A stretch of 42,395 nucleotides of DNA from a virus: positions 1-42,395 of IMG/VR virus record IMGVR_UViG_3300046484_000023; one strand, written 5' to 3'. The notes below the pieces were generated by a model that worked only from the letters and a program-made list of their open reading frames with translations, made no database searches and was not told where the DNA came from. Numbering within the stretch: position 1 is the stretch's first letter; every line of letters starts with the position of its first letter. The position numbers and the translations under genes are program-made. This document shows, piece after piece, positions 2,171-31,133 of this stretch.

Positions 2171-2704
2171 CTACGCCAGATTTTGGGCGGTTTTAAAACC
2201 GCGTCTTGAGTGTTCTTTTTTTACATTTTCAACTATCGTTAACCACTGACAATTCTCCGGAGCGTAATCTTCATTACTATCGATGCGATCAATCGTGAGA
2301 TTATCATCGTAGCCATGAGACAAAGCCCAATCTTTAAAAGCTATGAATTTTTTCCATGCATCACACACTTTTATGTTTTTGGCTCCATACCATTGATAAG
2401 CTTTCACTTTTGCATTTAAACAACGGTTCAACATTCCGCGCCATATACGATAGAGCCTGTGTCGTTCCCCTACTTTTGAAGAATATCCGTGAATGATCCC
2501 AACCGTTTTTAAGATTTCCGATTTTCTGCATCCACAAGATTTAGTGTGCCCACTTTTTAAATGCGATGATCCACAAGCGACTTTTTTCCCACAATCACAT
2601 ACGCATTGCCAAATGGCGTTTCCGCCTTTATCTGCGTGTAAAAATTCAATGGCGGTCAATCTTCCATATCTTTGATTTTTTAAATCAGCGCGTATTCTGC
2701 TCAT
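2171..2704 (-). CDS. HNH-type homing endonuclease with zinc ribbon (copy 1)
   Basis: A 177-residue protein with a DLKNQRYGRLTAIEF-type N-terminal motif, then paired cysteines (CVCDCGKK and SGHTKSCGC) that look like a zinc ribbon. A middle YRIWRGMLNRC helix and a C-terminal LTIDRIDSNEDYAPENCQW block follow, as in phage HNH/AP2-like homing endonucleases. It is inserted between the tail terminator and the major tail gene and shares an ATGA overlap with the former. Base composition is clearly more AT-rich than the flanking structural genes, which fits later arrival. It shares architecture with the genes at 22438, 25918 and 27660. Confidence 0.85.
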   Translation of the reverse strand: MSRIRADLKNQRYGRLTAIEFLHADKGGNAIWQCVCDCGKKVACGSSHLKSGHTKSCGCRKSEILKTVGIIHGYSSKVGERHRLYRIWRGMLNRCLNAKVKAYQWYGAKNIKVCDAWKKFIAFKDWALSHGYDDNLTIDRIDSNEDYAPENCQWLTIVENVKKEHSRRGFKTAQNLA

Positions 2705-3686: not shown

Positions 3687-4360
3687 GCCTTCACCGCCCA
3701 GATGGCCAGGTCTTTCTTGGTCTTGTCGTCCACGATGTTGATGAGCCGGTTCTCGGGCTGCATCTGCCCCTGGACGTAGAACTTCTTCATCCAGAGCCCG
3801 GAAAATGTCGCCGCGATCTGGATGGCAAGCTGGTGGATGTCTCCGTCCATGCCGTGCTGCTCGTCCGGCGCCACGGACTCGTCGTAGGTCACCACGGGGC
3901 TGGCTGTGAGGTCCTCGGTCCCGTTGTCCACGCCGACCTGAGCCGTGACGGTGTACGCCTCGGCCTTCATGCTCCAGCCGTAGCCAAGGCAGTACACGCG
4001 GCCGTTGATGTAGTCGACCTCGTAGTCCACGCCCTCCACAAGCACCGACGGCGTCGTGTTGCCGACGTGCGAGGTGAGCGCGAACGTGAGGATGGGCTTG
4101 AACGGAGCCTTGATGAATCCGCGCCGGACCGAGTTCACCGCAGGCCAGACGGTCCAGTTGCCAGGAGCGCCCTGGGTGTTGAGCACGACCTCGTTGGTGT
4201 ACTGCTTGCGGAAGAATATCCACCTGGTCTTCGAGTCGATGTACCGGCTCGCCCGGTTGATGGCCGAGAGGATCGTGTCTACGTCGTCCGCCTTGGTCTG
4301 CCCCATGAAGCGCTGGACTTCATCAAGGGAACAGTATGGTCTAAAAAGTGTGGCTGACAT
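3683..4360 (-). CDS. Head-tail connector (adaptor) protein
   Basis: A 225-residue protein beginning MSATLFRPYCSLDEVQRFMG. The N-terminal segment (SLDEVQRFMGQTKADDVDTILSAI) has the helical layout of head completion/adaptor proteins that dock under the portal (HK97 gp6-like), followed by a long beta-rich insertion. Its start overlaps the stop of the upstream HNH gene (TAATG). In the ancestral order, without HNH and glycosyltransferase genes, it would directly follow the capsid gene. The call is from position and the N-terminal pattern; 225 residues is longer than classic adaptors of about 100. Confidence 0.55.
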   Translation of the reverse strand: MSATLFRPYCSLDEVQRFMGQTKADDVDTILSAINRASRYIDSKTRWIFFRKQYTNEVVLNTQGAPGNWTVWPAVNSVRRGFIKAPFKPILTFALTSHVGNTTPSVLVEGVDYEVDYINGRVYCLGYGWSMKAEAYTVTAQVGVDNGTEDLTASPVVTYDESVAPDEQHGMDGDIHQLAIQIAATFSGLWMKKFYVQGQMQPENRLINIVDDKTKKDLAIWAVKA

Positions 4361-4833
4361 TATTGGGCCACCCCGGACCAGGTTTCATTCCGAACAATCA
4401 TGCCAATGTTTCCATAGCAAACCCCGTATTCTTTCGCCAAGTTCCTCAAAGACGACTTCCCGCTTTCCCACTTAACCCTTATCGCCTTTACTTGAACGAT
4501 GCTTAACTTCGCTCGCGGGTGTTCTTCTTTAGAACGTTGAGCAAAGTGTTTTGCCGCATGGTCTGATCTTTCTAAAATCTCAAGGTTCGATGAAGCGTTA
4601 TTGAGTTTATCACCATCTTTATGGTGGACGTTTCTGTCATCACCGTGGATCATCCCCAAGACCTGCCGAGCCAAATAAATTCTTTGCGAGCATCCTCTTA
4701 TCCATTCGCTCCTGAACACTCTTCCGTCTTTCAATAAATTCCACTTGTGCTTTGATATTTTAGGAAGGTCTTGGTCGTCAATCTTTGACCACGCGACTAC
4801 TTTATTGTTTTTGAATACTGGAACGTTTCCCAT
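4360..4833 (-). CDS. HNH endonuclease with C-terminal helix-turn-helix
   Basis: A 157-residue protein. The central VHHKDGDKLNNASSNLEIL segment is a clear HNH signature (HH...D..N...NLE). The C-terminal part (KLSIVQVKAIRVKWESG then LRNLAKEYGVCYGNIGMIV) reads as a DNA-binding helix-turn-helix of the kind fused to many phage homing nucleases. It belongs to a different HNH subfamily from the four zinc-ribbon copies. It is wedged between the GT2 gene (stop one base away) and the connector gene (TAATG overlap). Its AT-rich composition against GC-rich neighbours supports a mobile origin. Confidence 0.85.
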   Translation of the reverse strand: MGNVPVFKNNKVVAWSKIDDQDLPKISKHKWNLLKDGRVFRSEWIRGCSQRIYLARQVLGMIHGDDRNVHHKDGDKLNNASSNLEILERSDHAAKHFAQRSKEEHPRAKLSIVQVKAIRVKWESGKSSLRNLAKEYGVCYGNIGMIVRNETWSGVAQ

Positions 4834-9923: not shown

Positions 9924-12722
9924 TCAATCACCTTCGCTTTCGTCGGACTCACCGAAGTCGTCGGCGAATTCCTGAATCACTATTGTGCCGGTGTGGTTCG
10001 GGTGGAACTCAAGCGAGTCAAGTTCCTCCGGCAGTATGTCGGTCGCGTTGCAATCGGGCACGTCGTCCTCGCAGCCGATTACCATGTAGGACTTGGCCAC
10101 GTTCAAATCTCGTAGCGCCTTGGATCCAGCGCGGTCGTAAGCCCGGCTCATTTCCGTCCGGGAAATACACTCGGCCCGGTCGTGTAGCCGGCCGGAGGAA
10201 TCGATGGTCCCGGTCACGGCTCCGGTTTCCGGGTCAACGTAGTCGGCGAGTTCCCCGGCGAAATTCTTATACAGCCGGTTGGCCGCGCCGCCCCAGGTGT
10301 CGCCGTCCTTCAAACTTTCCTTGAGCGACTGTTCGATCAAGTCCCTGGTCGTAGCCGTCATCCGCACCGAGCGGTCGCCCGTGTTTAGGTTGACGTACTT
10401 CATGATGCGCCGGGTAGCCTCCGGGTCGATGGCGATGGTGAGCGTGGACGACTGGTTGCCAAGGGCATCTTGCCCGACGGCGGAGTAGCCCTGGTCGAGC
10501 GCTTCCTTCATGCCCTCGGCGTCTGCGTCTCGGTCGTAGATCGTGAATGTGAACTTGCGTATGTTGACCCCAACGTCGTCTCCGTGCCGGGCTTTGGAAA
10601 TTTTCCCGTGCTTTGCGAGGAGCGCCTCGTATGCGGTTTTCTCCATCGCGAATTCCGTCATGATGTCGTGCGTGGTTTCCGACAAGTGCTTCTCGACCTT
10701 CGCGGTCATCTTGACGTTATGTTTTTTCAGCGTAGCCTTCTGGAGCCGCAGCATATCCTCGCGTACCTTTTTCACAGACCGCTTGGCGTGCTTGGCCTTC
10801 CAGACCGGGCCGTCAGGGATCGACACCCATCCGCCCGCGTTCGTGTCGCGCCAAGACTTCTCCCGTCGGCGCATGGAATAGAGTCGGGGCCGGGGCACTG
10901 CGTCTTGGGCTTTATCGACGGTTTTATCGTCCCCTTGCGCCTTACGCGCTCCGGCCACCTTTTTTAAGGACTTCCCGTTTGGGTCGTCCGCGAATTCCGG
11001 GCCATCTCCACTCGGCGTAATATCGCTCGTATCTTCACTGGCCCGCCGCTGAATCCCCGCAAATTCGATGGGCGTCAGGTTGGACGGCACCAGCAGCTTG
11101 TTGGCGTTCGGGTCGTCCATTTCCGGCATTCCGAGCAGCTTCCGGCCCTCGTTGTGGGTCATCAGGCTGCCTTTGACCTTGGCTTCGATCTCCTCCGGGG
11201 TGAATAGTGCCTCGCCGACGAAGTCGAAGTAGTACTTGTCGTCAAGCCCCTGGAACTGGAGGATCTTGTTGCATACGATCTTGATGGCGTCCAGCGCCTC
11301 TTTGATGACCGTCTCCCGGCAGAGCTGAGTCTGCTCGTGCATGTTGTTGTACCGCGGAAGCTCTGCGCCTGTCTTTATCCACATCGTCGAGGGGAGGTGG
11401 AAGAGCTGAAGGATGGTCCGGTTCACATACTCCATCGTCTCGATCATGTTCTCCGGCGATGCGATGCCGGTGGTCTGTTCAACCTTCATACCCGGCGGGA
11501 TCACTCCGAGCCGGCCGACGTTAAACTTCCCGGTCAGCTTGGCCTCGATGTCCACGGCCTTGGAGAGATAGTCATCGTAGGACTGGAAGATGCCGAGCCC
11601 GCTGGGGTCGTTGGTCAGCCAGGCGGACGGGTGCATGCTGTTCTCCATCCAGTGCTGGAGCTGCCGGTTCATGACGAGGAACTGCTGGAACACCGCCTCG
11701 TTGGCCTCCACCATGCCCACGCCGTAGATCGGGAGCAGGACGTTGGGGATGCGCTTGAGGTGGACGATCCGTGTGGGCGGGATCACGAGCTCTGCGTACA
11801 CGCCCGCGTCGCGCTCGTTGACTTGCGACACGTTGGCGCCCTGACCGGCCGGGTAGTGGATGTTGCTCGGATTGCCGCCGCCCACGTCACCCGTGCGAAC
11901 GTCGACCAGGCCGGACGAGACGCCGGGCCGGTAGCGGTAGTATTTTGCTTTGAAGTCAAGGCCGAGTTCGGCTGTGACGAAGTGCGGAGGGAGCAAAACG
12001 AAGTCCAAATAGCCGGACCCGTCTTTTAACTTCTGATCGGGCATGACGTAGATGTTCCCGCAGGTGAAATAGTATTGGACGAACGTGCTGACGAAGTCTC
12101 GGAAGTCTCCACTCCCATCCGAGTTGTTGAAAAACTTGAGGCGCGGATCGTCTTTTAGCGTGGTATAGTCGATGGGCTTTTTTTTGAGGAGCAATTCCCC
12201 GGACCCGTCATTCGAGCGTTCAAAAAGTCCGAACTGGTTGTGGTTGATCTCTTTCGTGATGTAGTCGATGGCGCGGGACAGCGGGCTGATGACGCGGAGC
12301 GCCGCGAGATAGGAATAATACATCTGGAGCCGGATGACGTAATAATTGATGAGCTCGGGATTGTAATAGACCGGCACGTCCGGCGTGTAATCGGCATCGA
12401 AGACCAGGGCCTTTTGGTGGAGCCAGGCGCCGTAGTCTTTTTGGACGTTCACGGGATCGTTCAAGTTCGGCTGAAAAGCGTATTGTGGATGGACGGATAG
12501 CAATTCGTTGTAGACGTTCAAGCGCAAGTCTCCGAACTTTCGTTCGAGACCTTTTTCGCTGCGCTTTTTTTCCAAGAATGAATCGAGGCTAACGAAGTTT
12601 CCTTTCGGCGGTTGGATCTTCTTACCACTCTTGAAAACGAAAAAGCCTTTGGCGAGCGTTGCGACTCGCCGAAAGGCTTGGATGTGTGAAGCGAACACTT
12701 TGTGCAAGAAGTCGCGTGTCAT
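9924..12722 (-). CDS. Portal protein fused to Mu gpF-like minor head protein
   Basis: A 932-residue protein. Residues about 110-560 have portal features: ALRVISPLSRAIDYITKEIN, RIVHLKRIPNVLLPIYGVGM, and an ETMEYVNRTILQLFHLPSTM stretch, typical of HK97/SPP1-like portals. The C-terminal part (about 650-900) contains a MuF-type minor head domain (LHDRAECISRTEMSRAYDRA and GCEDDVPDCNATD). The fusion would put the DNA exit ring and an internal head protein on one chain. ATG 12722 lacks a convincing ribosome-binding site, and a terminator-like hairpin lies over codons about 15-27, so the true start may be later or initiation may be unusual. Confidence 0.85.
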   Translation of the reverse strand: MTRDFLHKVFASHIQAFRRVATLAKGFFVFKSGKKIQPPKGNFVSLDSFLEKKRSEKGLERKFGDLRLNVYNELLSVHPQYAFQPNLNDPVNVQKDYGAWLHQKALVFDADYTPDVPVYYNPELINYYVIRLQMYYSYLAALRVISPLSRAIDYITKEINHNQFGLFERSNDGSGELLLKKKPIDYTTLKDDPRLKFFNNSDGSGDFRDFVSTFVQYYFTCGNIYVMPDQKLKDGSGYLDFVLLPPHFVTAELGLDFKAKYYRYRPGVSSGLVDVRTGDVGGGNPSNIHYPAGQGANVSQVNERDAGVYAELVIPPTRIVHLKRIPNVLLPIYGVGMVEANEAVFQQFLVMNRQLQHWMENSMHPSAWLTNDPSGLGIFQSYDDYLSKAVDIEAKLTGKFNVGRLGVIPPGMKVEQTTGIASPENMIETMEYVNRTILQLFHLPSTMWIKTGAELPRYNNMHEQTQLCRETVIKEALDAIKIVCNKILQFQGLDDKYYFDFVGEALFTPEEIEAKVKGSLMTHNEGRKLLGMPEMDDPNANKLLVPSNLTPIEFAGIQRRASEDTSDITPSGDGPEFADDPNGKSLKKVAGARKAQGDDKTVDKAQDAVPRPRLYSMRRREKSWRDTNAGGWVSIPDGPVWKAKHAKRSVKKVREDMLRLQKATLKKHNVKMTAKVEKHLSETTHDIMTEFAMEKTAYEALLAKHGKISKARHGDDVGVNIRKFTFTIYDRDADAEGMKEALDQGYSAVGQDALGNQSSTLTIAIDPEATRRIMKYVNLNTGDRSVRMTATTRDLIEQSLKESLKDGDTWGGAANRLYKNFAGELADYVDPETGAVTGTIDSSGRLHDRAECISRTEMSRAYDRAGSKALRDLNVAKSYMVIGCEDDVPDCNATDILPEELDSLEFHPNHTGTIVIQEFADDFGESDESEGD
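12643..12679 (-). terminator. Terminator-like hairpin inside the start of the portal ORF
   Basis: On the minus strand a 14-bp stem with one bulged C (AAGCCTTTCGGCGAG paired with CTCGCCAAAGGCTT) closes an 8-base loop and runs into TTTTTCGTTTT. This has the form of an intrinsic terminator, yet it falls about 15-27 codons into the portal frame. It may act as an attenuator, end a short upstream RNA, or mean the annotated portal start is too far upstream. Confidence 0.6.
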
Positions 12723-12761
12723 GTTTTATGTGTACCACAACGGGAAATTCTTGCAAGTGTT
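12694..12761 (-). promoter_or_regulatory. Putative promoter and portal-start hairpin
   Basis: On the minus strand TTGCAA (12755-12750) is followed after 16 bases by TACACA, a weak sigma70-like pair, with an A/T tract just upstream. The same stretch forms an imperfect inverted repeat (12748-12761 with 12694-12710, TTCTTGCA arms) whose loop contains the portal ATG. Together with the two flanking terminator-like hairpins this looks like the switch point between middle and late genes. Promoter strength is uncertain. Confidence 0.4.
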
Positions 12762-12776
12762 TTTTTGAGAAAAAAA

Positions 12777-12804
12777 GCGGAGGCCTGTTTTTTCAGACCT
12801 CCGC
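12777..12804 (-). terminator. Intrinsic terminator upstream of portal gene
   Basis: Minus-strand stem GCGGAGGTCTG / CAGGCCTCCGC (one mismatch) with an A-rich loop, followed directly by TTTTTTTCTC. It sits after the small gene at 12821-12994 and before the portal gene, so it should stop most transcription from the early block before the head genes, implying a separate late promoter or antitermination. Confidence 0.85.
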
Positions 12805-12820
12805 CGGTTTACACTTTGGT

Positions 12821-14177: not shown

Positions 14178-14437
14178 GATCTTGCCTCCAGTTTTTGGCC
14201 CATGGATTTTTTGATGCACGGGCAGATGACCGCGACATACACGTTGCCGCGTTTCGCGTAGCCGAGCCGGCCGCGCACACACTTTTTACATTTCGGGTCA
14301 GACGACAACCGCTCCCTCGCCAGCATCGACTCCAAAGCCTTGTCCGCCATCTCCATTCTCTGATCCCGTTCCGAAGGCTGGAATGACGTACTGGTCTTCG
14401 GGGTCTTGCTGAACAACGACTTGAACTTCTTCAGCAT
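14174..14437 (-). CDS. Small putative zinc-binding protein
   Basis: An 87-residue basic protein starting MLKKFKSLFSKTPKTSTSFQ. The C-terminal half has CKKCVRGRLGY and CPCIKK, two cysteine pairs that could hold one zinc ion. It begins inside the 3' end of the likely small-terminase gene in another frame, overlapping it by 140 bases. Function unknown; a small nucleic-acid-binding role is possible. Confidence 0.55.
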   Translation of the reverse strand: MLKKFKSLFSKTPKTSTSFQPSERDQRMEMADKALESMLARERLSSDPKCKKCVRGRLGYAKRGNVYVAVICPCIKKSMGQKLEARS

Positions 14438-15095
14438 CTTCCACCTCCGAAACGATCTTCATGTTTCCGCTACGCTTATCTTCGAGCTCGCCTTCGGCGT
14501 CCGCCAGCATCTGTCTCAAAATCTCTACCCGGAGTTCTAATCCGAGTTCTTCGACGGCCACGAGGTTCCTATCGTCGCCGACCATCTCCACCGGCTGCAC
14601 CGGTTTACCGTCCACCCTGTCCGTGATGAACTCGGCCGCGGCAAGGTTCCCGGAGATTGCCTTGGCGTACACGCCGCACACGATCAAGTCTTTGTTGCTC
14701 ACTTCGGGAGCCACTCGGATCATCCACAAATCGAATCCTCCGCCGATTATGAGCCTGCATATCTTGGGAACGAAGTCGATTTTGTCATGGATTTTGATGT
14801 GCCCGTTTTCGGCGAGCTCGATCTCTTTGGCGCCCGTCTTTTCCTTGAGCATTGCAATCACGATTTCGGGATCGGACGTTTTGATCTCGATGCACTTTTT
14901 CAGCATCAAGCGTTTTGGCATCGGTATACCGAGGTTGTCGAATATATCCGCGGCCGTCTTCCCAGCCATTTTGCGGATGGTGTGGTTGAAAGACAAGCGC
15001 TTCTTGTGGACGGACTCCCGCGGGATGTTCGCCGGGAATTGTCCGGGCTTGTTCTGCCAGGGCTTTAATTGTTTAGCGGTTCCGTTTTTGTTCAT
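14298..15095 (-). CDS. Putative terminase small subunit
   Basis: A 265-residue protein starting MNKNGTAKQLKPWQNKPGQF. The N-terminal KPGQF...R motif and the AISGNLAAAEFITDRVDGKP helix with VQPVE are reminiscent of DUF5681/small-terminase-like proteins that recognise phage DNA for packaging. The C-terminal 47 residues are acidic and Gly-rich and overlap the next gene. It lies upstream of the portal gene, where small terminase is common, but the large subunit is far away at 34466-35851. Confidence is moderate; it could instead be another DNA-binding early protein. Confidence 0.5.
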   Translation of the reverse strand: MNKNGTAKQLKPWQNKPGQFPANIPRESVHKKRLSFNHTIRKMAGKTAADIFDNLGIPMPKRLMLKKCIEIKTSDPEIVIAMLKEKTGAKEIELAENGHIKIHDKIDFVPKICRLIIGGGFDLWMIRVAPEVSNKDLIVCGVYAKAISGNLAAAEFITDRVDGKPVQPVEMVGDDRNLVAVEELGLELRVEILRQMLADAEGELEDKRSGNMKIVSEVEDAEEVQVVVQQDPEDQYVIPAFGTGSENGDGGQGFGVDAGEGAVVV

Positions 15096-15667
15096 CCGAT
15101 TTTTTTGCTTTTCAAAGCCAATCCGTATTTTGCCAAGACTTCTTTGAGCTCTTCCAACGATTTAGGACCGGCTCCTCTGTACCTTAAAAAATCTCGCCTG
15201 GTCATTTTTACAATGTCCCTTATTGTCTTCGCCCCGGCTTTTTCAAGGATGTTCCTCACCCTGATATTCGGTTCAAGATGGTCCACTGGTTTAGCGAGGA
15301 GAATTTCGAGCGGGTCTTCTTCGTCTTTTCCTTTCGTGTTCCATTTTTCTCCACACTTCGGGCAGCACGTTCTGTTCTCGGCTTTATTCATGTCGTGAGC
15401 CATGAAAACCGTCTCGCACTTGGAGCAGACGACGCCATCCTCCTTGCCCACTTTGATGGTTCCATTCCCGGAGATCACGCGCGCGGCTTCTTGCGCCACG
15501 ACCGCCAGCGGCCCGTTGCAAAGCTCCACCGTATTTCCCTGCTTCAGTATATCCGTGGCCGAGTCCACCGCCTGCTCTATCTGCGAGACGTGAACTCCCC
15601 GTTGCAGCAGCGAGTAGATGAACACCACCAGTTTTTCGTCTGTCCGAACTTTCATAGTCCAGTCCAT
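15092..15667 (-). CDS. Zinc-ribbon protein with RNA polymerase alpha C-terminal domain
   Basis: A 191-residue protein. Residues 1-75 are helical and unrecognised; CSKC (81-84) and CPKC (102-105) make a zinc ribbon. From about 119 to 187 it closely follows bacterial RpoA alpha-CTD: LLAKPVDHLEPNIRVRNILE, then IRDIVKMTRRDFLRYRG and KSLEELKEVLAKYGLAL. Residues corresponding to E. coli R265, N268, G296, K298 and S299, which contact UP-element DNA, are present (R136, N139, G167, K169, S170). It may redirect host RNA polymerase to or from promoters, or act as an independent DNA-binding factor. The start has GGAGGG upstream. Confidence 0.85.
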   Translation of the reverse strand: MDWTMKVRTDEKLVVFIYSLLQRGVHVSQIEQAVDSATDILKQGNTVELCNGPLAVVAQEAARVISGNGTIKVGKEDGVVCSKCETVFMAHDMNKAENRTCCPKCGEKWNTKGKDEEDPLEILLAKPVDHLEPNIRVRNILEKAGAKTIRDIVKMTRRDFLRYRGAGPKSLEELKEVLAKYGLALKSKKIG

Positions 15668-15670
15668 GGT

Positions 15671-16255
15671 TCAATCCCTCCGCTTGACCTTGTTCTCTGG
15701 CCGGATGAGACCGACTTGGTCCACCCGTTGAACCACCGCTAAATCCCCGCCGCGTCCGGTGATGACCCCGCCCAAGGCCGGGACAAGTCCTTGGAGCTTC
15801 TTGACGTCCGATCCGGCCGGTGCTTTCCCGGCGTAGGTGATAAATACACCCCGCTCGTCGATGCCGAAGGAAAGGACTTTCCCGACGATCTGCGCCGGGT
15901 TGAATTCCAGAGTGACCACCGGGTTGGCCATGAACCTGTCCAAGCATCCGCCTTTGAAGCTCTCCGCGGTGAACACGTCCCCGTTCTCGTCCTTGCCGAA
16001 CTCGATCAGGTAGCCGTACCCGTCGAAATGCCCATCACCTTCCAGCCCGGTCAACGATCCGGGCGCCTCCAGAGGTGACCTGATCCCGGAGTCCAGGATT
16101 TCCCGCGCGCGACCGTTGTCCCCGCACAGGTCCTGACGGTAGTGGTGCAGGTCGTACAGGTTCACCAGCTCGTTCGTGGTGAACTTCGCCGGGTCCAGGT
16201 TCAAATGTTCGGCGTAGAACTTGTGCCAGTCTTCATCTTGCCAGTGCTTTTCCAT
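15671..16255 (-). CDS. Prohead-protease-fold-like protein without the expected catalytic residues
   Basis: A 194-residue protein. Residues about 80-190 line up by eye with the protease part of the capsid fusion: YGYLIEFGKDENGDVFTAES, NPVVTLEFNPAQIVGKVLSF, GVFITYAG, ALGGVITG, and QRVDQVGLIRPENK. The usual His in the LxxHD segment is replaced (TLEFNP), and the FSI Ser segment reads GGVIT. If homologous, it would be an inactive paralogue. The first 75 residues are helical and unrelated. It lies among early genes just upstream of the alpha-CTD gene, away from the head genes. Confidence 0.4.
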   Translation of the reverse strand: MEKHWQDEDWHKFYAEHLNLDPAKFTTNELVNLYDLHHYRQDLCGDNGRAREILDSGIRSPLEAPGSLTGLEGDGHFDGYGYLIEFGKDENGDVFTAESFKGGCLDRFMANPVVTLEFNPAQIVGKVLSFGIDERGVFITYAGKAPAGSDVKKLQGLVPALGGVITGRGGDLAVVQRVDQVGLIRPENKVKRRD

Positions 16256-16445: not shown

Positions 16446-16696
16446 GGCTTGCGCTTTTTCTCCGGCGCGTACATGGGTCTGTTGAGCTCTTGCTCAAGCC
16501 TTTCGTTTGTGGCCAGCGAGGTGAGCTGCACGATTTTAAGCGCCTGCTCTGTCGAGAACGTGGATCCGCCCATGTTCTCCACGATCCCATGAAAGTAGTT
16601 GGCCATCCTTGCCGATTTCAGAACTTGAAATTGTATGCTCCTAAGTTCCCGCCGAATCAACTCCCTGTCCGACTTGTTCGGAATTGCCTTGCTCAT
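16442..16696 (-). CDS. Hypothetical small helical protein
   Basis: An 84-residue, mostly alpha-helical protein starting MSKAIPNKSDRELIRREL. ATG 16696 is preferred over ATG 16705 because AAGGGG is correctly spaced only for the former. It begins within the 3' end of the glycyl-radical-domain-like gene. No known domain. Confidence 0.5.
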   Translation of the reverse strand: MSKAIPNKSDRELIRRELRSIQFQVLKSARMANYFHGIVENMGGSTFSTEQALKIVQLTSLATNERLEQELNRPMYAPEKKRKP

Positions 16697-16919
16697 GTTC
16701 ACCATCCCCTTCCCTTTTCTTCGCTTCTTCGATTTCCCGATCCGAAGCTCCCATCCCTTTGAGCATACGTTCCGCGATGGCCGGCTTCGATCCGGGTACC
16801 TTGAACGGCTTCCGGTTTTTGAATTCTTCCTGCTTGCCCTTGTTCCATTGCTGGATGGGACGGAAGTAGCCGACCACCCGGCTGTAGATTTCCGTCCTCA
16901 TCCCGCAGGGCTTTCCCAT
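16641..16919 (-). CDS. Stand-alone glycyl-radical-domain-like protein (class III ribonucleotide reductase C-terminus)
   Basis: A 92-residue protein whose N-terminal third (IYSRVVGYFRPIQQWNKGKQ then EEFKNRKPF) matches the C-terminal glycyl-radical loop of anaerobic ribonucleotide reductase NrdD, with G17 at the radical position. The full-length enzyme has over 500 residues before this; only the tail is present, and the usual paired-Cys zinc site is reduced to one Cys. The remaining 55 residues are a charged helix. It could act like a spare-part radical domain, as YfiD does for pyruvate formate-lyase, or be repurposed. Its start overlaps the upstream stop (TAATG). Confidence 0.6.
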   Translation of the reverse strand: MGKPCGMRTEIYSRVVGYFRPIQQWNKGKQEEFKNRKPFKVPGSKPAIAERMLKGMGASDREIEEAKKREGDGEHEQGNSEQVGQGVDSAGT

Positions 16920-20184: not shown

Positions 20185-20430
20185 TCACGCGCCCGCCTGC
20201 AGCAGAATTGGATCCACCTGGAACGTGTCCACGAATCGCTGAATGGCGACCGCGACATAGGCCGGGCTGATCTCGATTGCCCGGCATTTGCGTTTCAGAT
20301 TTTCGCAGGCGATGATGGTCGTGCCGGATCCGCTGAACGGCTCATAGACCAGGCCGATGGTGTGGTTGCGAATAGCGCGGGCCATGCACTCGATGGGCTT
20401 CTGCGTTCCGTGGCCGTGCCCTCGGCATGC
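20185..20430 (-). pseudogene. C-terminal remnant of a second DNA methyltransferase
   Basis: A minus-strand frame encodes HGTQKPIECMARAIRNHT, VYEPFSGSGTTIIACENLKR and CRAIEISPAYVAVAIQRFVD: the TQKP(I/V)E and FxGxG motifs that end beta-class DNA methyltransferases. Nothing matching the N-terminal catalytic DPPY half is found upstream; the frame meets a stop just before, and the adjacent frame gives only a short stretch, so it is a truncated, frame-disrupted relic. It lies back to back with the intact plus-strand methyltransferase, suggesting replacement or recombination at this locus. Confidence 0.75.
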
Positions 20431-20806: not shown

Positions 20807-20956
20807 ATGAAACCGCAGCATATTTTACCGTTTGTTTTGATGTGCATCGACCTGGGAGCCGCCATTGTTTATTTGGTGTGCGATGGGCCCGGAGGATGGC
20901 GCAAGGTGGTTTATTGGCTTGCGGCAGCGAGTCTGACTTACGTGGTGACGTTCTGA
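20807..20956 (+). CDS. Small two-span membrane protein
   Basis: A 49-residue protein starting MKPQHILPFVLMCIDLGAAI, with GGGGGAAG ahead of the ATG. Two hydrophobic segments (about residues 6-24 and 33-49) are separated by a short polar loop (CDGPGGWRK). Its TGA overlaps the methyltransferase ATG, so translation is coupled. Function unknown; it could be a holin-like or exclusion protein, but the size and context do not decide. Confidence 0.65.
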   Translation: MKPQHILPFVLMCIDLGAAIVYLVCDGPGGWRKVVYWLAAASLTYVVTF

Positions 20957-21720
20957 TGAAACCATACTATCAGGACAACGCGGTAACAATATATCACGGA
21001 GATTGCCGGGAAATATTACCGAAAATTGAACCCGTTGATATGATTTTCACCGATCCACCTTATGGTCACAACAACAACAACGGAGACTTAATAAATAATT
21101 GGGAAAATGCTTTGGGAAAAATTTCTCGCGGTTCACAAAACGCAGCGCGACCAATTGTAAATGATGGACCAGAGGCGAATGAATTAGTTAAGTGGTTTTT
21201 TGGTGAAACAAAACGGTTACTCCGTACTGGTGGCTGCTGCTGCTGCTGCTGCTGCTGCGGCGGCGGCGGACCAGATCCGCAATTTGCTCGCTGGTCATTG
21301 TGGATTGATGAGGTTTTGGACTTTAAGCAAATGGTTATCTGGGATAAAGGACCGATGGGCATGGGTTGGCATTATCGCCGGAGCTACGAAACAATTTTGG
21401 TGGCCCAAAAGCCGGGAGCTGCTTGTAAGTGGTATGACGATACCGACAAAATAGAAAACATTATCCGCCCTGGCTATAAAGGGATACGTAAAATCATACC
21501 ATCTGCAAGCGATCATTCAACACCAAAACCCATTGAATTAATCAGTCATTTTATACAGCTTCATTCTTTGCCGGGAGAAATAATTTTGGACCCATTTTGT
21601 GGACACGGTCCAACACTCAGATCTGCCAAGGATTTAGGCCGTAAAGCTATCGGTATCGAAATCGAAGAAAAATATTGTGAAATTGCCGCCAAGAGGATGC
21701 AACAAGAAGTTTTGTTTTGA
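20956..21720 (+). CDS. DNA methyltransferase (N4-cytosine/N6-adenine, beta-type order) with poly-Cys insert
   Basis: A 254-residue protein starting MKPYYQDNAVTIYHGDCREI. The catalytic motif DPPYG is at residues 33-37 and the SAM-binding region DPFCGHGPT at about 212-220, the order of N4/N6 enzymes with the catalytic motif first. Residues 94-101 are eight consecutive cysteines coded by eight TGC, followed by four glycines. It probably protects phage DNA from restriction. The gene is more AT-rich than the rest of the genome apart from this tract, and it is the only substantial plus-strand gene, so it may be a separate acquisition. Confidence 0.85.
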   Translation: MKPYYQDNAVTIYHGDCREILPKIEPVDMIFTDPPYGHNNNNGDLINNWENALGKISRGSQNAARPIVNDGPEANELVKWFFGETKRLLRTGGCCCCCCCCGGGGPDPQFARWSLWIDEVLDFKQMVIWDKGPMGMGWHYRRSYETILVAQKPGAACKWYDDTDKIENIIRPGYKGIRKIIPSASDHSTPKPIELISHFIQLHSLPGEIILDPFCGHGPTLRSAKDLGRKAIGIEIEEKYCEIAAKRMQQEVLF

Positions 21721-22070: not shown

Positions 22071-22438
22071 TTTACCTCCAAAGTCCTGAGCGTGATATCA
22101 ATCCCATCCGGTCCCTTAAGGCGCTTGCGATAAATCGCTAGGATAACTTGGCTGTCTCTCAAATATGCGGCACCCTGCAGGGCGTCTTGGATAGCACCAC
22201 CAGCGTTGTCCACATCAAACCTTCCACGGTAGCTGATCCGCAGAGCGCACCGACATTCCACCGGCTTGTTCCATCCGCGGGCTGCCAGCTTTGAGCGAGC
22301 AATCATGTTTAGCGTATCTCGCCAGGCGGTATATTCTGGTTTTCTAAACATCATGTGCCGTCCCCGCCCGTGGCTGATACGAGAGCTATGCTGCTTACTC
22401 ATCGCCAAAACCCCCGGCAGCCAGATGCGCGCCTTCAT
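22067..22438 (-). CDS. rusA: RusA-type Holliday junction resolvase
   Basis: A 123-residue protein starting MKARIWLPGVLAMSKQHSSR. GRFDVDNAGGAIQDALQGAA is the RusA metal-binding block (DxDN, then D in IQDAL), followed by YLRDSQVILAIYRKR, where the DD/RDD acidic residue and basic tail fit the family. It would cut branched DNA made during replication or recombination before packaging. The start overlaps the HNH stop (TAATG). Together with RecT and the exonuclease it completes a recombination module. Confidence 0.85.
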   Translation of the reverse strand: MKARIWLPGVLAMSKQHSSRISHGRGRHMMFRKPEYTAWRDTLNMIARSKLAARGWNKPVECRCALRISYRGRFDVDNAGGAIQDALQGAAYLRDSQVILAIYRKRLKGPDGIDITLRTLEVK

Positions 22439-22941
22439 TAAATCATCATCCTTCTTTGATTTCTTCGCTGAACAATTTTAGTTGTCCATCGGCAGTTGCT
22501 TGGTGAATATCCTTTTTCGTTATCTTTTCGATCAATGGTGAGCTCTGGAGTATAACCATTGGCCAATGACCATTTAATGAACGTCTCGGCATCGTGCCAT
22601 GCCTTGCAGACTGTAATTCCACGTCCCCCATAGTTTTTAAAACCTTTTTGTTTTGGATATTCGCAACGGCTCAACATTCCACGCCAGCGATAATACAAAC
22701 TTGTATTGGTCATGCCATGGGTTTTTTCAGAACGCCTCATAGCGGACACGATACATCCGCATGATTTAGTATATCCCGCCTTAAGAGAACTTCCAGAAAC
22801 TATCTTGGTTTTTCCGCATTCGCATTGACATTCCCACAAATACGCCTTTCCAAGACGTGTACTGAATTTCATGACTTCTAGTTTACCAAAAATCATGCCA
22901 GTTAAATCTTTAAAACCTTTTCCATGGTTTGAGGCGCTCAA
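22438..22941 (-). CDS. HNH-type homing endonuclease with zinc ribbon (copy 2)
   Basis: A 167-residue protein with DLTGMIFGKLEVMKF, cysteine pairs (CQCECGKTK and AGYTKSCGC), YYRWRGMLSRC and the C-terminal LTIDRKDNEKGYSPSNCRW block. Same architecture as the copies at 2171, 25918 and 27660. The open frame has TTG at 22941, inside the end of the transglycosylase-like gene; the real start is uncertain but must lie before the DLTG motif. AT-rich relative to neighbours. Inserted between the transglycosylase-like gene and rusA. Confidence 0.85.
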   Translation of the reverse strand: MSASNHGKGFKDLTGMIFGKLEVMKFSTRLGKAYLWECQCECGKTKIVSGSSLKAGYTKSCGCIVSAMRRSEKTHGMTNTSLYYRWRGMLSRCEYPKQKGFKNYGGRGITVCKAWHDAETFIKWSLANGYTPELTIDRKDNEKGYSPSNCRWTTKIVQRRNQRRMMI

Positions 22942-25326: not shown

Positions 25327-25927
25327 TGCCTTCCCTCCAGTTCCATGCCGCCAAGCAGCACCGGAAATAATGAAAATCGTTCTTCCCCTTGATTGGCCGG
25401 AAGTCGTAGCCTCCATCGAGCCGAAGCTCGCAGAACCACCGCTCTTTGATTTTTTCTTTGTGAGCCTCATCCCAAGCATTTGCATATGCTGAGGTCTGGA
25501 GCGGTTCGAGCATCGGGTTGTAAGCGCGGCTCTTGATTTCGATGAGCGCAAGCACTCCCTTTACTTTTGCCACTACGTCTAATCTTCCGGCATATTGATA
25601 TTTGAGGCTTGCTACCACCTGCTCCACAGCATAGACTTCGATATGCTTTTCTCGTTTGCACTTCTTCCATGCCTCAAGAATTCCCGATGTATCCGCAAGG
25701 TATTTTCCTTTTGGGCGCAAACTATTCTCATCCAATTTTCCATGCTCGTGCAATTCTACTATGCGATGGACGGCATTTCCAAAGGCACAAGCTCGTTCTA
25801 AAACATCTTTTGAAACGTGATCATAGTTCGAGATTAATCCCAGGGCCGTAGTCACACTTGGAAATCGGACATCTTTACCTAGCCATTCCCCTTTATAAAA
25901 ACCATCTTGGTCTCGTTCTAATGACAT
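25313..25927 (-). CDS. PD-(D/E)XK exonuclease (RecT partner)
   Basis: A 204-residue protein starting MSLERDQDGFYKGEWLG. The nuclease core is YAGRLDVVAKVKGVLALIEIKS: D in GRLDVV and the E-x-K of IEIKS are the metal-binding residues of the PD-(D/E)XK superfamily. A YANAWDEAHKEK-type helix follows. It would resect DNA ends to feed RecT annealing. ATG 25927 has ACGGAG upstream; the 16 extra residues possible upstream overlap the HNH gene and lack a signal. Confidence 0.75.
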   Translation of the reverse strand: MSLERDQDGFYKGEWLGKDVRFPSVTTALGLISNYDHVSKDVLERACAFGNAVHRIVELHEHGKLDENSLRPKGKYLADTSGILEAWKKCKREKHIEVYAVEQVVASLKYQYAGRLDVVAKVKGVLALIEIKSRAYNPMLEPLQTSAYANAWDEAHKEKIKERWFCELRLDGGYDFRPIKGKNDFHYFRCCLAAWNWREGNGGK

Positions 25928-26439
25928 GGTTTTCTCCGTGTCACGCATTGTTCTTTTCGCGTGGCCCACCGACAATTTTTTGGAGTGTAGTCTCCGTCAT
26001 TGTCTTTGCGGTCGAGTGTCAGGTCATCCCTGTACCCGTGGGAAAGTGCCCACTTGATGAACGTGGCCGCATCGTGCCACGATGGCCAAACTTGAATTCC
26101 TCGCCCTCCGTAATTCTTGTAGTATTGATGGGAAAGATTTTCACACCGCCTCTTCATGTTTGACCATATGCGATGAAGCCGTTTGTGGACAAGTCCATGC
26201 TTAAAGTGAATTTCGGAAGTTCTCATCTTCATATAGCAACCGCACGAAGTAGTGTGCCCGCTGTTCAGATTACTTGTTTCGCACACTACTTTATTCCCGC
26301 ACTCACATATACATTCCCAATATCGGCGTGGCCCGGTTATTCCCTTATATCTACCAACCACTTTCAGGCGACCGAACCGTTTGCTCTTTAGATCAGCCGG
26401 TCGGAATGTGCCGTCTTTTTCCCTTTTTCTTGTTTCCAT
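25918..26439 (-). CDS. HNH-type homing endonuclease with zinc ribbon (copy 3)
   Basis: A 173-residue protein with DLKSKRFGRLKVVGRYKG, cysteine pairs (CICECGNK and SGHTTSCGC), HRIWSNMKRRC, YGGRGIQVWPSW and LTLDRKDNDGDYTPKNCRW. Same family as the other copies. Its ATG lies 52 bases inside the end of recT in another frame, and its stop overlaps the exonuclease start by a few bases, so it is inserted exactly at the recT-exonuclease joint. More AT-rich than recT. Confidence 0.88.
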   Translation of the reverse strand: METRKREKDGTFRPADLKSKRFGRLKVVGRYKGITGPRRYWECICECGNKVVCETSNLNSGHTTSCGCYMKMRTSEIHFKHGLVHKRLHRIWSNMKRRCENLSHQYYKNYGGRGIQVWPSWHDAATFIKWALSHGYRDDLTLDRKDNDGDYTPKNCRWATRKEQCVTRRKPCH

Positions 26440-27462: not shown

Positions 27463-27663
27463 TCACCCTCCCACGTTTTTAGTCCATGGCCATTGGAATG
27501 GCCATAGCCGCCTTACGATCCGCCACAAGGTCCGGCGCCGTTCCATCCGGCACAAAATTCGACCGTGTAGCGCCGATCCTTTCCCGTGCATAAAATTGGT
27601 GTTCTTTTTTCCGGCCTGTCCTCCTTTTTTAAATGTCCCGTTTCCGTTTCGGTCGATTTTCAC
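27463..27663 (-). CDS. Small protein, possibly an HNH-endonuclease N-terminal remnant
   Basis: A 66-residue very basic protein with GTG start overlapping the TGA of the HNH-RHH gene. The first third, NGNGTFKKGGQAGKKNTNFM, resembles the N-terminal leader of many phage homing endonucleases, but no nuclease motif follows; the rest is Arg/Trp-rich. It ends inside the recT ribosome-binding region. It may be a decayed fragment of an HNH gene or a small basic protein. Confidence 0.4.
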   Translation of the reverse strand: MKIDRNGNGTFKKGGQAGKKNTNFMHGKGSALHGRILCRMERRRTLWRIVRRLWPFQWPWTKNVGG

Positions 27664-27878
27664 GAATTTACCTCCGGGCGCCTCGTTGCCTTCTTCGGAT
27701 CGTGGTGTTCCATGAACTCAACGAGCGCCTGTTCCTCCAGCGGGCCGCGCTTGACCTTCATCTTGTCCCTGAACTTCCTCCATGCGTCGGCCACGGACGG
27801 GCTGACCTCGACGTGCAGGAAGCGGTGGGATGCCACCTTCTTTCCGAGCGGCTTTAACTTTGGAAATCTTTTGTTCAT
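27660..27878 (-). CDS. Internal ribbon-helix-helix-like product within the HNH fusion gene
   Basis: Translation from ATG 27878 (AAAGGAG starting 14 bases upstream) would give a 72-residue protein starting MNKRFPKLKPLGKKVASHRF with the pattern of small Arc/MetJ-like repressors. Likely the ancestral gene before an HNH element joined its front in frame. The separate product is inferred only from the start signal. Confidence 0.5.
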   Translation of the reverse strand: MNKRFPKLKPLGKKVASHRFLHVEVSPSVADAWRKFRDKMKVKRGPLEEQALVEFMEHHDPKKATRRPEVNS

Positions 27879-28184
27879 GGCTTGCTCCTTTATAGTTGCG
27901 AATTTGCAATTCTCCGGCTCATAGTTGCCGTCATTGTCGATCCGTTCGATGGACAGTCCTGCGCTGTAGCCGTGTCCTGTTGCCCACCGAATGAACGTGA
28001 CCGAATCGTGCCACGCTTTGCAGACCTTGATCCCGCGACCGCCCCAGTCTTTAAACCGCGGATGATTCTTGTTCCCGCACCGCTGGAGCATATTCTCCCA
28101 GCACTGATATATTTTTCTTACTTCTGGGCTTTTCATGCCTTTATAATATTGCTTGTTTTCGTTTTTGTAAACAATATTTTTCAT
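27660..28184 (-). CDS. HNH-type endonuclease fused to a ribbon-helix-helix-like domain (copy 4)
   Basis: A 174-residue protein. Residues 1-105 have the family core without the N-terminal zinc ribbon: YQCWENMLQRCGNKNH, GGRGIKVCKAWHD, LSIERIDNDGNYEPENCKF. From MNKRFPKLKP (ATG 27878-27876) the C-terminal 72 residues read as strand FLHVEV then helices SPSVADAWRKFRDKM and PLEEQALVEFMEHH, a ribbon-helix-helix-like arrangement. AAAGGAG lies right before that internal ATG, so a separate ribbon-helix-helix gene probably existed and can still be translated alone. Confidence 0.75.
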   Translation of the reverse strand: MKNIVYKNENKQYYKGMKSPEVRKIYQCWENMLQRCGNKNHPRFKDWGGRGIKVCKAWHDSVTFIRWATGHGYSAGLSIERIDNDGNYEPENCKFATIKEQAMNKRFPKLKPLGKKVASHRFLHVEVSPSVADAWRKFRDKMKVKRGPLEEQALVEFMEHHDPKKATRRPEVNS

Positions 28185-30556: not shown

Positions 30557-31078
30557 TCAAATGCCTAAAAAGTCAAATACTATTTTTACATATTTTTTAC
30601 CTTTCTTGACCTTGGAAAGGTCCGCTAGAAATACCTTTCTGGCCAGGGATTCTTTCAAAATATCTTTAAGATTATTAGGAGTTGAAATATCCTGCATTTT
30701 AAAAGACTTTCTGGCTATTTCCCGGGCCGCGATATAAGCCTTGTGCGATTCGTGGCGATGCACAAAATAAGCGTTGGATCGGATGTTTTTACGGGCGTTG
30801 CAGCTTCGGCAGATTATTTGAATGTTGTTTTCTGTCAGAACATGCCCGTTATCCACCCGATCCAAAGATGGCCGATTTCCGGCATGACCTTCTCCGCGCT
30901 TCCATATAAATTCAAACCCGCAGTATCTGCATGATTTTGTCTTTTGGGCGATATCTACAAGTTTCACCCATCCGATTTTCACGTCATATTTTGCTCTATG
31001 CCTATTGAGCGTCTGCATGGCCCATATTTTCATTGGATTTTTTAAAACATACTTTGCTTGAGCTGGGTTTTTATCCAT
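30557..31078 (-). CDS. HNH endonuclease with zinc-type Cys pairs, first gene of early operon
   Basis: A 173-residue protein. SCRYCGFEFIWKRG, RPSLDRVDNGHVLTENNIQI and ICRSCNARKN make an HNH nuclease with two CxxC pairs, distinct from the zinc-ribbon family elsewhere. A basic helical C-terminus (HRHESHKAYIAAREIARK) may bind DNA. CGGAGG precedes the ATG, and a sigma70-type promoter lies 28 bases upstream. AT-rich relative to most of the genome. Confidence 0.85.
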   Translation of the reverse strand: MDKNPAQAKYVLKNPMKIWAMQTLNRHRAKYDVKIGWVKLVDIAQKTKSCRYCGFEFIWKRGEGHAGNRPSLDRVDNGHVLTENNIQIICRSCNARKNIRSNAYFVHRHESHKAYIAAREIARKSFKMQDISTPNNLKDILKESLARKVFLADLSKVKKGKKYVKIVFDFLGI

Positions 31079-31105: not shown

Positions 31106-31133
31106 ATTATATCATGGAGTTTGTTTTTGTAAA
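31106..31133 (-). promoter_or_regulatory. Sigma70-type promoter of the early minus-strand operon
   Basis: On the minus strand TTTACA (31133-31128), a 16-base spacer and TATAAT (31111-31106). Upstream of the -35 is A/T-rich sequence from the terminator tail, which could act as an UP element. It lies between the terminator of the late block and the first early gene. Confidence 0.75.

Follow-up and report, generated by a model that had tools for sequence, protein, structure and literature searches.

We analysed a virus record of 42,395 bases (IMGVR_UViG_3300046484_000023; "the window" below is this whole stretch of DNA), which carries terminase, portal, head protease, tail tube and tape-measure genes, together with a recombination and replication region encoding RecT, RusA, HNH nucleases and an HD hydrolase. 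Our subject is a minus-strand gene for a 191-aa protein, at the C-terminus of which lies the C-terminal domain of the RNA polymerase alpha subunit (alpha-CTD). The relevant features are:

15092..15667, minus strand: gene of the 191-aa protein (helical N-terminal region, probable zinc ribbon and C-terminal RNA polymerase alpha-CTD), from the ORF, its translation, Pfam PF03118, neighbour coupling and the Shine-Dalgarno sequence
15676..15681, minus strand: Shine-Dalgarno sequence GGAGGG of this gene, from the sequence
15458..15667, minus strand: N-terminal region, aa 1-70, with three predicted helices (about aa 11-22, 27-43 and 53-66), from low-confidence models
15353..15427, minus strand: probable zinc ribbon, aa 81-105, CSKC-x17-CPKC, with C101 adjacent to C102, from CxxC pairs, shuffles and sub-threshold matches
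15107..15319, minus strand: alpha-CTD, aa 117-187, from Pfam, PDB sequence search, NCBIfam, Foldseek and residue alignment
14298..15095, minus strand: downstream gene without a family match, function not assigned, its start overlapping the stop of the 191-aa gene (ATGA)
31106..31133, minus strand: strong sigma70-type promoter (TTTACA-16-TATAAT) that heads the early-type region and immediately follows the terminator 31180-31151, from the promoter scan
12776..12805, minus strand: intrinsic terminator separating the early-type region from the portal gene, from terminator and sequence analysis

The good ribosome site, the gap of 3 nt that separates the upstream ORF from the start codon and the ATGA overlap at the stop together indicate that 15092-15667 is a real gene in a compact operon, probably translationally coupled to the gene at 14298..15095. 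Terminase small subunit identity was considered for this downstream gene and has no profile support. The early-type region begins at the promoter 31133-31106, is interrupted by a plus-strand methyltransferase-like ORF (20842-21720) and ends at the terminator 12805-12776, with the portal gene beyond; the 191-aa gene belongs to its distal part, ~2.3 kb upstream of that terminator. The GC3 of the gene is 0.48 in the alpha-CTD part versus 0.73 in the N-terminal part, a break that hints at separate acquisition of the alpha-CTD but is no more than suggestive, since values this low also occur in 5.7% of windows of equal size taken from the phage's own genes. Two other genes of the window (2171-2704 and 4360-4833), with GC3 of 0.34 and 0.49 against 0.8-0.9 in their neighbours, look recently inserted.

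By sequence and predicted fold, aa 117-187 are a genuine RNA polymerase alpha-CTD. The Pfam search matched aa 117-179 to PF03118 (RNA_pol_A_CTD) with 44.3 bits (E=1.5e-11; curated cut-off, 23.8 bits), every significant match in the PDB sequence search was an RNAP alpha chain, and NCBIfam rpoA models scored 35-49 bits over aa 110-188, extending to aa 98-189 at most and remaining far under their own cut-offs. The AlphaFold model is confident across the alpha-CTD only (pLDDT 80-90), and in Foldseek this part superposed on solved alpha-CTDs (1lb2, TMt 0.93, rmsd 0.9; 1z3e, 0.91 and 1.1; several chains of 3n97, 3n4m and 9zum), with sigma4-alphaCTD-DNA and alphaCTD-DNA complexes among the matches. 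The sole helix-hairpin-helix (HHH) alternative, HHH_5, reached 13.9 bits (E 0.076), 30 bits behind PF03118, which rules out a generic HHH identity of the C-terminus. The profile search and structure prediction suggested by the sequence-only reading thus bear out its identification of the C-terminal ~70 residues as an alpha-CTD. It was also right that the N-terminal assembly domain is missing: profile search of the 191-aa protein found no match to the alpha-NTD, the part responsible for dimerisation and assembly. The protein is therefore not RpoA itself; it resembles bacterial RpoA in the profile, fold and most DNA-contact residues of this one domain but, lacking the alpha-NTD, cannot join RNA polymerase in the normal way, and a helical region and zinc ribbon replace the NTD and linker.

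The protein contains two CxxC pairs, C81/C84 and C102/C105, and only 22 of 20,000 shuffles of its own composition gave two such pairs 8-30 residues apart, so that composition alone is unlikely to account for them. No zinc-ribbon family in Pfam or NCBIfam was matched over its own cut-off; weak sub-threshold matches were obtained in Pfam, NCBIfam and PHROGs (the best Pfam ones at 15-17 bits against cut-offs of 24-34), and the segment is poorly modelled, with low confidence. The zinc ribbon proposed at first reading is accordingly supported by its cysteine pairs, although not by a family match above cut-off or by the model, and we regard aa 81-105 as a probable, not a proven, zinc ribbon. Likewise, the helical region said to occupy the place of the NTD is predicted as three helices, but with low model confidence. 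The N-terminal 71 residues have no relatives in phage records or PHROGs, and the N-terminal 112 residues gave no relative in the collections searched.

To compare the DNA- and sigma-contact residues, we used E. coli alpha numbering. The protein keeps R265 (R136), N268 (N139), G296 (G167), K298 (K169), S299 (S170), E302 (E173) and E261 (E132), with G165 at the N294 position, H130 at the D259 position and an Arg at the K291 position. Five of the six UP-element contacts (R265, N268, N294, G296, K298 and S299) are thus retained, N294 being the one replaced, by Gly. The side chains of R265 and N294 reach into the minor groove and K291 and K298 contact phosphates (PMC7822876), and alpha D259 and E261 contact sigma R603 (PMC5511352). 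With Gly at N294 and His at D259, the domain appears to be only partly equipped, mostly but not fully, for the classical UP-element and sigma contacts, and the loss of N294 suggests binding that is weaker or less A-tract-specific than that of the host alpha-CTD. The conservation of DNA-contact residues asserted from the sequence holds for R265, N268, G296, K298 and S299, but the changes of N294 to Gly and of the sigma contact D259 to His had been missed.

These residues bear on whether the protein could be a decoy or inhibitor, in which case the free alpha-CTD would compete with the host alpha-CTD for binding to UP elements, to sigma region 4 or to host activators, thereby lowering host transcription, for example of rRNA. 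The kept contact residues would permit such competition, and phages do attack alpha-CTD function: the phiKMV-like Rac causes a cleavage that releases the alpha-CTD (PMC7552054), and G1 gp67 blocks the contact of the alpha-CTD with DNA (PMC4495994). However, an isolated alpha-CTD binds weakly, in the micromolar range, and would have to be made in large amounts; with its contacts partly lost (N294, D259), this one should compete poorly; and the fusions to sigma region 4 and HTH domains found in relatives suggest targeted binding. We therefore consider a decoy unlikely.

No close relative of the whole 191-aa protein was found in viral contigs, phage records or genome contigs: the phage-record search returned only host rpoA and domain-level matches, several of them being host rpoA in records filed as phage, and the genome-contig search only an ordinary Hydrogenedentota rpoA. 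Phages related by portal or terminase are distant, their terminases being about 25-37% identical to that of the window, and PF03118 above cut-off occurs in none of the 44 viral records with a related terminase, which marks the 191-aa gene as accessory. At the domain level, by contrast with the whole protein, scans of viral contigs and phage records uncovered many alpha-CTDs without an alpha-NTD, amounting to about 45 non-redundant detached domains in phages and mobile elements. The alpha-NTD signature is present in a single one of the 50 sequences compared, that of a Yoonia plasmid, and in none of the viral-contig proteins. The sequence-only reading had named as its refutation a better-scoring non-RpoA HHH family and loss of the DNA-contact residues in homologues. 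This refutation fails: PF03118 is clearly the better match, and R265 is kept in 43 of the 45 non-redundant domains, N268 in 43, N294 in 40 and G296 in 39, while position 298 is K or R in 40. Since canonical peptides served as the scan queries, the sample is biased to canonical domains.

The architectures of these proteins include Sigma70_r4 followed by an alpha-CTD, the same with an HTH_17 or HTH_3 domain in front, coiled segments with an alpha-CTD, an alpha-CTD at the N-terminus, and a fusion of NinX to an alpha-CTD-like domain (L010); in some phage fusions, this last protein among them, the alpha-CTD shades into a generic HHH. In viral loci such as L145, L149, L012 and L014, Sigma-70 region 4 is fused to the alpha-CTD, sometimes with an extra HTH, so that both upstream promoter-contact domains of RNA polymerase sit on one detached chain. 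As in the 191-aa protein, a detached alpha-CTD is here combined with a second nucleic-acid-binding domain, the partner being Sigma70_r4, HTH_3 or HTH_17 instead of a zinc ribbon. A 409-aa phage protein (L157; also L160 and L161) apparently holds three alpha-CTD-like repeats together with sigma-region-4-like segments.

Like the 191-aa protein, a 132-aa zinc-motif protein of three viral contigs (L167-L169) has CxxC pairs in its N-terminal part and an alpha-CTD behind them, which PF03118 matches with 69 bits; its gene lies upstream of a terminase small subunit gene. It differs from the 191-aa protein in its Cys spacing of about 29 residues, in having no long N-terminal helical region and in keeping N294 and the canonical acidic residues. 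The small bacterial protein NF005841/PRK07758 (Priestia megaterium) similarly combines a Cys-rich N-terminus with an alpha-CTD-like domain but has no equivalents of R265, N268 and K298, which the 191-aa protein keeps; membership of that family is ruled out by a score of 27.5 bits against a cut-off of 115.

An alternative is that the protein serves DNA metabolism, modification or packaging as a general DNA-binding HHH module, the alpha-CTD having been co-opted as a non-specific DNA grip with no role in transcription. The hairpin of the 191-aa protein does read GAGPKS, the canonical HHH form, the genes that could be identified next to free alpha-CTDs in other phages are often ones of DNA metabolism (methyltransferases, helicases, polymerases, exonucleases and terminases among them), and the PglW-like kinases of BREX hold a related HHH. 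Nevertheless, the 30-bit lead of PF03118 over HHH_5, the retention of R265 and N268, both absent from the HHH-like PRK07758, and the presence of sigma region 4 in the same chain in several phage relatives argue against this explanation, which we hold to be improbable. The alpha-CTD-like HHH domain of PglW-like kinases in Hydrogenedentota genomes (L042, L043, L044) itself scores above the PF03118 cut-off.

Some phage proteins have already been named for an alpha-CTD domain in BFVD and GenBank, and one genome paper lists a phage alpha-CTD-type protein (PMC9127768). Cultured phages with such a gene include Bacillus phage vB_BmeM-Goe8 and Caulobacter phage CcrColossus. Those compared resemble the 191-aa protein in the absence of an alpha-NTD but have other partner sequences, without a CxxC pair, and are not close in sequence. 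With an alpha-CTD in a phage gene and no alpha-NTD, the 191-aa protein falls into an informal class of phage free alpha-CTDs. Judged by these comparisons, the version with a zinc ribbon and helical region appears to be new within a set that is already known and, as far as found, experimentally uncharacterised: the literature searched, with most subscription journals outside its scope, yielded no experimental or functional study of detached phage alpha-CTDs.

As for possible targets, the sequence-only reading pointed to A/T tracts directly upstream of the -35 at both the main early promoter and a putative late promoter (12722-12761), and had the protein control the early-to-late switch as an activator of the latter. 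The early promoter (31106-31133) matches 11 of 12 consensus positions and looks real, whereas the late one matches 4/6 and 3/6 and is absent from the promoter scan listing. The A/T tracts at both promoters are largely T-tails of intrinsic terminators (31180-31151 and 12805-12776), the second of these tails forming part of the tract first taken as an UP-like element, and A-tracts of at least 7 bp are common in the window (38, of which 30 lie inside genes). The promoter argument thus fails, and the case for a switch role comes down to the position of the gene. The early promoter must fire before the 191-aa protein exists. The position of the gene, in the distal early-type region ahead of the terminator and portal gene, suits a middle or late regulator. 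Activation of the late promoter would also fit the run of seven A upstream of the proposed -35 and the arrangement in L168, where a terminase small subunit gene follows the zinc-like alpha-CTD gene at a distance of about 1.3 kb. Set against the weak promoter, the terminator tail and the lack of any recognised repeated late-promoter motif, however, this specific model seems to us very unlikely.

The alpha-CTD is usually viewed as a tethered arm of RNA polymerase. When encoded alone by phages, repeatedly and with new partners, it could be a stand-alone promoter-binding module or a weapon against the host enzyme, and the many detached alpha-CTDs in phages most likely serve to steer transcription during infection. 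We favour, at somewhat better than even odds, the explanation that the 191-aa protein is an early- or middle-expressed, DNA-binding transcription regulator with a detached alpha-CTD as its DNA end. An isolated alpha-CTD from B. subtilis binds promoter DNA alone (at 5 uM) and also together with Spx in a joint recognition complex (PMC2801614), which argues that the alpha-NTD is not needed for promoter binding. The fusions to Sigma70_r4 and other HTHs in phage relatives point to promoter DNA as the target, and we count in favour of the regulator the DNA-contact residues kept here and in most of the 45 free alpha-CTDs, as well as the position of the gene. The changes at N294 and D259, the accessory status of the gene and the shading of the alpha-CTD into a generic HHH in some phage fusions speak against it.

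In the proposed mechanism, the alpha-CTD would use R136, N139, K169 and S170 to bind A/T-rich promoter DNA in the minor groove and might sit beside sigma region 4 through E132, while the zinc ribbon and helical part would provide a second contact, with a dimer partner, DNA or RNA polymerase. At selected promoters, those of the phage being the most plausible, the protein would thereby add or substitute an UP-element contact. It may be an activator or a repressor; no target promoter was identified. More broadly, and tentatively, phages may widely refit loose alpha-CTDs, joining them to sigma region 4, to an HTH or to a zinc domain, so that they read UP elements in detached form and recruit sigma and RNA polymerase to the promoters of the phage, the 191-aa protein being the zinc-ribbon version of this unrecognised class of transcription factors; we see this generalisation as possible rather than probable.

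Several other genes of the window are worth recording. A 92-aa ORF (16641-16919, minus strand) starts with a stand-alone match to the NrdD C-terminus (CGMRTEIYSRVVGYFRPIQQWNKGKQEEF; Pfam NRDD, E 1.6e-9, profile positions 527-561); it resembles the glycyl-radical tail of the anaerobic ribonucleotide reductase NrdD without the catalytic body and could represent either a spare-part domain of the GrcA/YfiD type or the remnant of a full gene. The ORF at 20842-21720, on the plus strand within an otherwise minus-strand region, is DNA-methyltransferase-like, with a DPPYG motif recognised by eye, and contains 8.7 perfect copies of a GCT triplet in tandem (21233-21258), read in the frame of this ORF as a run of Cys. 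A 66-aa ORF (20185-20385, minus strand) resembles the C-terminal end only of a DNA methyltransferase (FSGSGTT...) and is possibly a broken gene. Finally, four HNH or endonuclease VII-like genes (22438-22941, 25918-26439, 27660-28184 and 30557-31078) are found in a stretch of 9 kb and are possible homing endonucleases; three of the four match the same PHROG families.
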